Shown here one piece after another: positions 35,511-37,158 of a stretch of DNA of 64,000 nucleotides (position 1 is its first letter; each line of letters begins with the position of its first letter). This DNA is from Acinetobacter suaedae (GTDB taxonomy: Bacteria > Pseudomonadota > Gammaproteobacteria > Pseudomonadales > Moraxellaceae). The stretch is taken from contig NZ_CP043909.1 of assembly GCF_008630915.1 (NCBI RefSeq), positions 1,550,001-1,614,000 on the forward strand. The letters run 5' to 3'. The notes beneath the pieces are model-generated. The model worked only from the letters and a program-made list of their open reading frames with translations. It was not told the DNA's origin and did no database searches. The translations under genes and the position numbers were made by a program.

Positions 35511-35749
35511 AAGAAATCTCATAAACAGGATATGCAAAATAGAGATAAATTTTAGAATAGAAAACGCTAACAGATAGTTAAGTCTATTTTGCACATCAAA
35601 AAAGAAAGAATGATTTTGATGATAAAAATAGGACTTACTTCATTGGCGTGGACTCAACTTGATGTATTTTTATACTATTCTATGAGGGATGAGAAGAAAG
35701 GTCAAATCTTGAGATTTTGAAGATCTGGTTAAAAAAATATAAAAAATAC

Positions 35750-35778
35750 TTGTCAAATGCTGAAATAGTGCGTAATTT
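35750..35778 (+). promoter_or_regulatory. Sigma-70 promoter of the aroG leader
   Basis: TTGTCA (35750-35755), a 17-bp spacer, then TAATTT (35773-35778). Transcription would begin near 35785, about 30 nt before the first leader peptide. Element quality and spacing are good. Confidence 0.7.
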
Positions 35779-35815
35779 AGGTTTTAGAGATATTTTTTAG
35801 ATATTTGAAAAAATT

Positions 35816-35869
35816 ATGTTAAAGCATACTGTGAACACAAACGCATATTTTTACTTTTGGCACTATTGA
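35816..35869 (+). CDS. Aromatic leader peptide 1 of the aroG attenuator
   Basis: The 17-codon frame reads MLKHTVNTNAYFYFWHY then TGA. Six of the last seven codons are Tyr, Phe or Trp, which is far beyond chance and is the pattern of attenuator leader peptides. An in-frame GTG at 35831 would give the 12-residue form. The ribosome site is weak (GAAAAAA). The stop lies inside a hairpin (35859-35877), and a terminator follows about 50 nt later. Its translation should sense charged tRNA for all three aromatic amino acids. Confidence 0.8.
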   Translation: MLKHTVNTNAYFYFWHY

Positions 35870-35951
35870 TAGTTGCCTGATGCGTTTCGGGCAGCAAAAA
35901 GGGTTGCCCAACCAGTTAATACCTGATCGGCAACCCCGGTCAGGTTTTTTT
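35859..35951 (+). promoter_or_regulatory. Transcription attenuator with alternative RNA pairings
   Basis: Pairings read directly: (1:2) GGCACTAT/ATAGTTGCC at 35859-35877 across the leader stop, flanked by AAACGCAT (35839-35846)/ATGCGTTT (35880-35887); (2:3) GTTGCC (35872-35877) with GGCAAC (35929-35934), or GGGTTGCC (35901-35908) with GGCAACCC (35929-35936); (3:4) the terminator at 35921-35945. Pairings 1:2 and 2:3 exclude each other, as do 2:3 and 3:4. A ribosome halted on Tyr/Phe/Trp codons would mask arm 1, free GTTGCC and block the terminator, so aroG is read through when aromatic amino acids are scarce. Confidence 0.78.
35921..35951 (+). terminator. Intrinsic terminator of the aroG attenuator
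   Basis: ACCTGATCGG pairs with CCGGTCAGGT (one G-T pair) across the loop CAACC, followed by seven T residues. It lies more than 160 bp before aroG and after leader peptide 1, as expected for attenuation. Confidence 0.92.
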
Positions 35952-35985
35952 ATGCTTTAACAATCATCACTTTAGGAGAATTACC

Positions 35986-36078
35986 ATGTATACATTCAAC
36001 ATTTCATATTTTAGCAAGACTTCTTGGTTCTACTTTGCAAAGAAATCAACATCGCTTAGATCCCACTTGCTCAAATAA
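35986..36078 (+). CDS. Second aromatic-rich leader peptide before aroG
   Basis: A 30-codon frame begins MYTFNISYFSKTSWFYFAKK and ends in a basic/Ser/Leu tail. Eight residues are aromatic (Y2, F4, Y8, F9, W14, F15, Y16, F17), with a WFYF run. AGGAGA lies 8 nt before the ATG, a better ribosome site than that of leader 1. It lies beyond the terminator and ends 36 nt before the aroG ATG, so it is translated only on read-through RNA (or from an internal promoter). I infer a second, translational sensing step; no such two-peptide layout is known to me for DAHP synthase genes. Confidence 0.7.
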   Translation: MYTFNISYFSKTSWFYFAKKSTSLRSHLLK

Positions 36079-36084
36079 ATATTC

Positions 36085-36101
36085 GGACTGTATAACAGTC
36101 C
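36085..36101 (+). promoter_or_regulatory. Hairpin against the aroG ribosome-binding site
   Basis: GGACTGT-ata-ACAGTCC is a perfect 7-bp stem. It starts 6 nt after the stop of leader peptide 2 and ends 1 nt before the aroG AAAGGA. It has no T tail, so it is not a terminator. A ribosome ending leader 2 would open it, which suggests translational coupling. Confidence 0.65.
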
Positions 36102-36114
36102 AAAGGAAATGAAA

Positions 36115-37158
36115 ATGAATGCTTTAAATACTGCTTTGACACAACCACAAACGCATACAAAAGAAACAATGCTCAGCTTGCCAACACAACTCAAAGCGCA
36201 GTATCCCTTGTCTGCTAATTTAGTAGAGCAAATTTCAAGACATCGTCAAACGATTCAAAATATTTTATCAGGTCATGATCATCGTCTAATGGTTATTACA
36301 GGGCCTTGCTCGATTCATGATCCGATTGCTGTATTAGAGTACGCTGATCGTTTACAGCAATTACAAGAACAAGTAAAAGACCAGATCTTTCTCGTAATGC
36401 GAGCATATATTGAAAAACCACGTACAACTGTGGGCTGGAAAGGTTTCTTATACGATCCAAATTTAGATGGATCATCAGATTTACAATTGGGTTTAGAGAA
36501 ATCTCGTGAGCTTTACTTGCAACTCATTGAGAAAGGTTTGCCAATTGCAAGTGAAATATTAAGTCCAATGGCTACGGGTTATTTTGATGATCTGTTGGCT
36601 TGGGGCGCAATTGGCGCACGTACGAGTGAATCACAAATTCATCGTGAAATTGCAAGTCATATGCCGTATAGCATTGGTTTCAAAAATGGAACTGATGGTT
36701 CAATTCAAATTGCTTTAGATGCAATTCAATCTGCTTTGAATGGGCATCAATTTTTAGGAATGACTCAGCAAGGTTTACCAGCAATTCTTCATAGTAATGG
36801 TAATCCGTTACCACATTTAATTTTACGTGGCTCTAACCAAGGCACAAACTATGATTTGGCATCAATTCAAGCGATGCATTTTAAGCATAAGCATTTACCT
36901 GCTTTAGTGATTGATTGTAGTCATGGAAATAGTGGTAAAGATCCATTGCAACAGCCGAATGTTTTAAAACAAATTATTGCAGAGCGTGCTGAGTCGAAAG
37001 TTCGTGGTGTGATGATTGAAAGTCATTTGGTTGATGGAAATCAAAAGATTTCTTGTGATATGACGTATGGACAATCAGTAACTGATGGCTGTTTAGGTTG
37101 GGATAAAACTGAACAAGCTTTATTAGATGTTGCAGAACAAATGAGATCAAAAAAGTGA
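36115..37158 (+). CDS. aroG: 3-deoxy-7-phosphoheptulonate (DAHP) synthase, class I
   Basis: The protein has 347 residues. It condenses phosphoenolpyruvate and erythrose-4-phosphate, the entry step to the shikimate pathway. Family motifs: VITGPCSIHDP (metal Cys, about residue 60), RAYIEKPRTTVGWKGFLYDP, LAWGAIGARTSESQIHRE, GFKNGTDGS and VIDCSHGNSGKDP (His). I chose the ATG at 36115, 7 nt after AAAGGA, rather than the one at 36109. It belongs to the AroF/G/H group; which amino acid inhibits it is not readable. The long leader with two aromatic-rich peptides points to attenuation control. Confidence 0.95.
   Translation: MNALNTALTQPQTHTKETMLSLPTQLKAQYPLSANLVEQISRHRQTIQNILSGHDHRLMVITGPCSIHDPIAVLEYADRLQQLQEQVKDQIFLVMRAYIEKPRTTVGWKGFLYDPNLDGSSDLQLGLEKSRELYLQLIEKGLPIASEILSPMATGYFDDLLAWGAIGARTSESQIHREIASHMPYSIGFKNGTDGSIQIALDAIQSALNGHQFLGMTQQGLPAILHSNGNPLPHLILRGSNQGTNYDLASIQAMHFKHKHLPALVIDCSHGNSGKDPLQQPNVLKQIIAERAESKVRGVMIESHLVDGNQKISCDMTYGQSVTDGCLGWDKTEQALLDVAEQMRSKK

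Follow-up and report, generated by a model that had tools for sequence, protein, structure and literature searches.

Two aromatic leader peptides in series upstream of the Acinetobacter DAHP synthase gene aroG suggest a two-tier attenuator

The window analyzed here is a stretch of 64,000 nucleotides corresponding to positions 1550001–1614000 of an Acinetobacter chromosome (contig C1). It carries aroG, whose nearest named relatives come from A. haemolyticus (98% identity), preceded by two short reading frames rich in aromatic codons, termed leader peptide 1 (LP1) and leader peptide 2 (LP2). The main elements of the locus are as follows.

35750–35778, plus strand: promoter, TTGTCA (35750–35755) and TAATTT (35773–35778) separated by 17 bases; direct reading
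35816–35869, plus strand: LP1, MLKHTVNTNAYFYFWHY, 17 codons with stop TGA; rule match in 142 of 142 stretches
35921–35951, plus strand: terminator, 10-bp stem (35921–35945), loop CAACC, then T7; terminator scan and covariation
35974–35978, plus strand: Shine-Dalgarno sequence of LP2, AGGAG; direct reading, similar motif in the alignment
35986–36078, plus strand: LP2, MYTFNISYFSKTSWFYFAKKSTSLRSHLLK, between terminator and aroG; rule match, absent from the earlier note on this DNA
36102–36120, plus strand: aroG start region, AAAGGA and start ATG; direct reading, ATGAA start aligned across the genus
36115–37158, plus strand: aroG, type I DAHP synthase; PF00793 match at 36256–37119 (1586256–1587119 on the contig)

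The start codon of aroG is most likely the ATG at 36115 rather than the one at 36109, as the latter lies too near the Shine-Dalgarno sequence. The source genome contains three PF00793 matches in total: aroG itself, a paralogous DAHP synthase gene of about 50% identity and a third one with a 285-aa frame, presumably kdsA. A rule-based search upstream of the paralog found no aromatic run; one short frame there contains three scattered aromatic residues (VVIGWLYSCHCCRYTD). Elsewhere in the same genome, a 497-aa PF00425 gene, which we take as trpE (L286), is preceded by a Trp-rich short frame (...NRWWIVWWNSLKK...) at −198 to −42 before the gene start, a candidate trp leader peptide.

The earlier note had described the promoter with its 17-bp spacing and the 17-codon frame with six aromatic codons among its last seven, and direct reading finds both. 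LP1 is the sole ATG-started frame of 8–60 codons on either strand of the window that has six aromatic residues within seven codons with all three kinds represented. A comparable frame appeared in 9 of 100 first-order Markov windows, so that a single sighting is only mildly unusual, and conservation has to decide.

Upstream regions of 66 named Acinetobacter loci and 79 loci of further genomes were therefore compared with the window, giving 146 loci and 142 distinct 521-base stretches, two of which (L046, L135) come from the same contig, offset by a few bases; distinct stretches from LP1 to the terminator number 135. The 79 further loci were picked from the 173 of 175 genomes having a match, leaving out 23 genomes and those already among the named loci. 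An exact LP1 pattern proved too strict across the family, matching 1 of 119 genomes and missing nearly all Acinetobacter in that set. Five other Moraxellaceae genomes gave best matches with E values of 1e-89 to 1e-102, and the rule found no aromatic leader in the two loci inspected (L217 and L223).

Conservation of the aromatic run across the genus, which the note had proposed as a check, is complete in this sample: the rule finds LP1 in all 142 Acinetobacter stretches, each with a [YF]-F-W motif. Tyrosine is encoded by TAT in 108 and TAC in 34 cases, phenylalanine by TTT in 104 and TTC in 38, and this interchange is the pattern of a kept peptide. Mean pairwise differences in the LP1 core are 0.014, 0.103 and 0.263 for the three codon positions, a clear coding signature. 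By eye, no clear Shine-Dalgarno sequence precedes LP1. The promoter pattern TTGTCA-17-TAnnnT is found 5′ of LP1 in 126 of the 142 stretches, and a much looser pattern in all of them; a generic promoter scan did not include the LP1 promoter among its calls.

Between LP1 and the terminator, the RNA can be divided into five segments connected by a chain of alternative pairings (1:2, 2:3, 3:4, 4:5) that ends in the terminator.

35859–35877, plus strand: hairpin 1:2, GGCACTAT (35859–35866) with ATAGTTGCC (35869–35877), one bulge, spanning the end of LP1 and its TGA stop; direct reading and alignment pair counts
35872–35895, plus strand: hairpin 2:3, GTTGCCTGA with TCGGGCAGC, excluding both 1:2 and 3:4
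35889–35909, plus strand: hairpin 3:4, GGGCAGC with GTTGCCC; direct reading and alignment pair counts
35901–35936, plus strand: antiterminator pairing 4:5, GGGTTGCC (35901–35908) with GGCAACCC (35929–35936); direct reading, mostly invariant pairs

The hairpin over the LP1 stop, a GTTGCC–GGCAAC pairing and the 10-bp terminator with seven T had all been recognized in the note and are present; two GTTGCC stretches exist here, and the one facing the terminator's GGCAACCC lies inside GGGTTGCC. The note had also claimed that these pairings exclude one another in the order expected for attenuation. This description is incomplete, the chain being of the his type, with the further pairings 2:3 and 3:4, and not the simple one given there. 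Pairing 4:5 has only two or three bases in common with the terminator stem; the two should nevertheless be mutually exclusive on grounds of RNA geometry, because both could form only if a linker of no more than one base bridged a helix of 7–8 bp. In the region 35650–36150, two terminator-like sites were found versus 0.2 expected in shuffled sequences, the second one being on the minus strand.

Two alternative states can be assembled from this chain. State A (1:2, 3:4 and the terminator) pairs in 97.9% of alignment cells compared to at most 49.5% in slid controls, and state B (2:3 and 4:5) in 94.3% compared to at most 54.9%; in each of them three pairs have changed on both sides, a count that for state B was matched by 82 of 500 shuffles. 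Two of eight counted terminator pairs have changed on both sides, and at one G-C pair of 2:3, of 55 rows, 7 have A-U instead and 9 are unpaired. Of the seven counted pairs of 4:5, four are invariant, and the outermost is broken in 16 of 52 rows. Covarying stems, the other check proposed in the note, were thus obtained for the terminator and, less firmly, for 2:3, while the antiterminator pairing rests on invariance.

Switching was modeled by equilibrium folding of RNA cut just past segment 5, with a ribosome placed on it, for the 48 of 50 loci that could be located (all except L183 and L184). The mean probability of 4:5 was 0.89–0.90 with a ribosome stalled on the aromatic codons, 0.52 with a ribosome at the stop codon and 0.64 with no ribosome; the corresponding values for the window were 1.0, 0.72 and 0.97. 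The change exceeded 0.3 in 24 of the 48 loci, and in two of them (L124 and L161) the pairing hardly forms in any state. The modeled switch thus runs in the expected direction, and its predicted size at equilibrium is modest.

We propose that RNA polymerase would start near 35785 and that a ribosome would translate LP1 behind it. When Phe, Tyr or Trp is scarce, the ribosome would stall on the YFYFW codons and cover segment 1, allowing 2:3 to form; segment 4 would then be free to pair with segment 5, the terminator would be blocked and aroG transcribed. When aromatic amino acids are plentiful, the ribosome would reach the LP1 stop and cover segments 1 and 2, so that 3:4 and then the terminator would form, yielding a leader RNA of approximately 165 nt. 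We are highly confident that LP1 belongs to a genuine transcription attenuator. In this respect the central claim of the note, an attenuator at aroG, is supported: the leader is conserved, has the features of a coding frame, contains codons for three aromatic amino acids and precedes a type I DAHP synthase gene. A second aromatic leader lies beyond the terminator, however, which makes it probable that the control of transcription is followed by another one.

Both leaders are found by rule in 140 of the 142 Acinetobacter stretches. The two exceptions for LP2 are L065, where a divergent LP2-like frame is embedded in a longer one, and L079, where LP2 is frameshifted; the one-base deletion in L079 breaks the aromatic core and represents either a real loss or a sequencing error. 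LP2 is strongly diverged in A. apis, A. nectaris, A. rathckeae and A. baretiae (L061–L063 and L065). The typical core reads Y-F-S-N-x-Y-W-F-Y-F, with Trp in 133 of 136 located cores. Mean pairwise differences by codon position are 0.103, 0.149 and 0.203, a weaker coding signature than that of LP1, so translation of LP2 is a prediction from sequence. The frame's 3′ end, where GCTCAAATAA spans the stop, shows almost no nucleotide variation, and most Acinetobacter share a C-terminal R-P/S-x-x-L-K. Several pairings involve LP2 and the region following it.

35993–36013, plus strand: LP2 stretch, predicted partner of the aroG start region in the source species; duplex and mask effect
36007–36077, plus strand: possible pairing of TATTTTAGC (36007–36015, Tyr-Phe-Ser codons) with GCTCAAATA (36069–36077, end of LP2 and its stop)
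36082–36104, plus strand: hairpin past the LP2 stop, core GGACTG (36085–36090) with CAGTCC (36096–36101), abutting the aroG Shine-Dalgarno sequence

Four of five counted pairs in the hairpin past the LP2 stop have changed on both sides. Its reading as a plus-strand terminator was rejected, as no T run follows it; on the minus strand, 36082–36104 appears terminator-like, with 10 pairs and a T-rich tail. The possible pairing of TATTTTAGC with GCTCAAATA is kept in 95.0% of cells versus at most 51.2% when slid, with no covariation, and none was seen in either of two additional LP2 pairings tried in the alignment.

In many species other than the source one, the predicted partner of the aroG start is formed by the Tyr-Trp-Phe-Tyr-Phe codons of LP2. 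RNAalifold, applied to 78 thinned sequences out of 133 aligned, places the aromatic codons opposite the aroG Shine-Dalgarno sequence and start, and the post-stop hairpin forms in the same prediction. For the helix between LP2 and the start, 81.0% of cells pair, and few of its pairs have changed on both sides. A swap test comparing own and foreign LP2 against the aroG start gave −8.61 versus −8.40 (P = 0.20), and is uninformative because the LP2 core hardly varies.

The cost of opening the aroG start was then calculated for 50 thinned Acinetobacter loci with a 29-base ribosome footprint and 12 sets of codon-permuted LP2 as the null; two of 52 thinned loci were left out (L035, with an LP2 lacking Trp, and L116, with a misassigned LP2 start). 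As the loci are related, none of these comparisons represents a series of independent trials. With no ribosome, opening costs 6.12 kcal/mol, compared to 4.41 in the permuted sets (highest 4.67). A ribosome around the LP2 Trp codon lowers the cost to 4.54 kcal/mol (null 4.32), and a ribosome at the LP2 stop raises it to 7.16 kcal/mol (null 5.18). The difference between stop and core is 2.62 (null 0.87, highest 1.10), and 38 of the 50 loci exceed their own null median; among 20 loci with less than 72% identity it is 2.38 versus 0.92 (highest 1.41). Synonymous recoding gives a base cost of 5.16 (highest of 8 sets 5.59) and a stop-minus-core difference of 1.50 (highest 1.68), both below the native values. 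Since permuted and synonymous controls hide the start less, the model suggests that the choice of nucleotides in LP2, beyond the peptide it encodes, hides the aroG start, and that the place of the ribosome matters on average.

Individual loci are less uniform. Masking around the Trp codon saves at least 1 kcal/mol in only 23 of 50 loci, and the stop-minus-core difference is zero or negative in four of 50. Some mask near an aromatic codon saves at least 1 kcal/mol in 46 of 52, a lenient count given how rich LP2 is in such codons. Scanning the mask along LP2 at every second codon in 51 loci places the largest mean opening (−2.19) with the A-site 7–8 codons before Trp, compared to −1.43 at Trp itself; the opening is thus tied to the first half of LP2 and not to the Trp codon, and a ribosome anywhere in that half would open the start. 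In the source species, LP2 pairs with the aroG start through its codons 3–10. The start opens (−3.3 to −4.9) only when the A-site lies between the second and the twelfth codon; placing the ribosome on the Trp codon leaves it unchanged (−0.1), and at the stop the value is −0.6, with no tightening. The model would therefore work there for the early Phe and Tyr codons and not for Trp. In L043, L049, L050 and L129, masks near the LP2 start and not those at the aromatic core open the aroG start; in L043 and L049 the best duplex involves LP2's own start codons.

Opening of the start by ribosomes anywhere in the first half of LP2 would also be expected if LP2 and its hairpin merely coupled or insulated translation, with a ribosome at the LP2 stop melting the hairpin and no sensing involved, and the position of the hairpin between the LP2 stop and the Shine-Dalgarno sequence, seen both in Acinetobacter (aligned) and in the Pseudomonas-type genomes described below (by eye), fits this. 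However, plentiful amino acids would then raise aroG expression, opposite to LP1, the modeled ribosome at the stop leaves the start less open on average than no ribosome at all, and there would be no reason for the aromatic run. We regard coupling without sensing as quite improbable.

LP2 might instead act against Rho over the approximately 165 nt between terminator and aroG, with LP1 being the attenuator of transcription: ribosomes on LP2 would exclude Rho, or stalling would expose or hide a Rho site. Leader peptides acting via Rho are known, as exemplified by tnaC, and LP2 does fill this gap in 140 of 142 stretches. Both the aromatic run of LP2 and the effect of its codon choice on the aroG start would be left unexplained, making this reading unlikely, though less so than plain coupling.

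The reading we prefer, in which LP2 controls translation, adds a second step to the scheme. Once the whole transcript is made, the coding region of LP2 would pair with the ribosome-binding region of aroG. Stalling of a ribosome on the aromatic portion of LP2 would uncover that region, whereas a ribosome at the LP2 stop would leave the pairing free to form and may even favor it.

A link to leaders outside Acinetobacter came from an Rfam scan. RF00627 (P15), a family catalogued as an sRNA, matched the window from LP1 to the terminator over its full length but weakly (18.7 bits, E 0.13), which is not significant alone, as an unrelated family reached E 0.024 in the same scan. This lies far below the P15 gathering score of 70 bits, and no family matched the window at its gathering score. 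Among 145 order-level genomes there were 11 P15 matches, six of them over the gathering score, and all 11 are located 77–342 nt upstream of a DAHP synthase match in the same genome and on the same strand; the P15-like region of the window is likewise upstream of DAHP synthase. According to PMC2375449, P15 belongs to a set of 17 P. aeruginosa sRNAs from Livny et al. (2006). The consistent position of all 11 matches just upstream of DAHP synthase leads us to infer that P15 looks like the terminated leader of this gene and not a free sRNA.

The main group of these genomes (f21) was taken as Pseudomonas from the name of the P15 family and the match scores. Of 62 loci collected, 57 belong to two genera of this group, one to a third genus and four to two other families. 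Among their 61 distinct upstream regions, the rule identifies LP1 (...YFFYGYWFSQRRA type) in 60 and LP2 (...YYRYYRNSDWRFS... type) in 56. In L254, LP2 is present though the rule failed, L210 has a possible LP2, and neither leader was found by rule in L236. A GC-rich hairpin adjoins the Shine-Dalgarno sequence after LP2 in Pseudomonas-type sequences (by eye). In 25 thinned loci taken as Pseudomonas (L209 was left out as its start was not located), opening the DAHP synthase start costs 6.43, compared to a mean of 6.83 with permuted LP2, and falls below all the permuted sets (lowest 6.51), meaning that the start is less hidden than in these controls. The stop-core contrast in the same loci is 0.19 versus −0.69 (highest null −0.38; 17 of 25 loci), in the expected direction. 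The two-leader layout is thus common to Acinetobacter and to the genomes taken as Pseudomonas, while the folding model argues for a translational mechanism in Acinetobacter only.

Four loci from other families of the order (L211, L212, L214 and L228) show an LP1-type peptide (FFFGYWF, FYGYWF, FFWWFGYGFYF) and no LP2 by rule. Together with the frameshifted LP2 of L079, they would suit a reading in which only LP1 and the terminator matter, LP2 having been left as a relic by a leader duplication. Its retention in nearly all Acinetobacter stretches, accompanied by a covarying hairpin, makes a relic highly improbable. LP2 could also encode a small functional protein, the RNA pairings being incidental, and its amino-acid conservation in Acinetobacter, including the C-terminal motif, would be consistent with this. 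However, in the genomes taken as Pseudomonas its sequence is strongly different except for the aromatic content, and both the near-invariant 3′ nucleotides and the synonymous control speak for a role of the RNA, so we give a small protein just as little credence as a relic.

Taken together, we consider it probable that LP2 is a second aromatic sensor, and somewhat favor a translational mechanism for it, as suggested by the folding model. On the same modeled basis, a two-tier attenuator with LP1 acting on transcription and LP2 on translation is our moderately favored reading of the locus; stalls in vivo, tRNA charging as the signal and the serial action of both leaders are what we infer. The cell thus seems to check its supply of Phe, Tyr and Trp twice. 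More tentatively, and with a chance we put below even, the serial LP1–LP2 attenuator may be a standing control of DAHP synthase that Acinetobacter and Pseudomonas received from a shared ancestor, LP2 having three states (open with a ribosome in the aromatic part, closed with one at the stop, intermediate with none) and P15 being the terminated LP1 product. If true, entry into the shikimate pathway in two well-studied genera would be controlled independently of the repressors used by enterics, proteobacteria would stack a translational leader-peptide switch on a transcriptional one for a single signal, and an explanation would be offered for the catalogued sRNA P15.

In the his, trp and pheA attenuators of enterics, a stalled ribosome picks between terminator and antiterminator, and the enteric his leader has an alternating pairing chain as LP1 does. 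The locus described here differs from all three in its target gene, in the three amino acids encoded and in the second tier. In the at (rtpA) operon of B. subtilis, uncharged tRNA-Trp is reportedly sensed in tandem at the levels of transcription and translation (Chen and Yanofsky 2003, 2004). It resembles the present case in placing control of termination before a leader peptide that controls translation via stall versus stop; however, its first tier is a T-box and its second senses Trp only, whereas the present locus has a leader peptide in each tier and a proteobacterial biosynthetic enzyme as its target.

For C. glutamicum, an aromatic leader peptide has already been reported to attenuate a DAHP synthase gene through the ribosome: aroF is controlled by the aroR leader, which contains Phe-Tyr-Phe (Neshat et al. 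2014, as relayed in PMC11802643 and PMC4046766). By the descriptions given there, aroR is a single leader; the locus described here differs in having codons for Tyr, Phe and Trp, a chain of the his type and a second leader. Salmonella mgtCBR carries the tandem attenuators mgtM and mgtP, two leader frames in one leader mRNA as in our case; unlike here, both act on transcription and respond to different signals (ATP and proline). In B. subtilis yxjB, ribosome stalling on a tylosin-induced leader sets both termination and translation, with one leader peptide instead of two. A literature search by title and abstract, mostly without subscription papers, returned nothing on this Acinetobacter leader or on tandem aromatic leaders in Pseudomonas. 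DAHP synthase attenuation, tandem leaders and tandem transcription/translation sensing are each known, and two aromatic leader peptides in series before a DAHP synthase gene appear to be a new combination of them.
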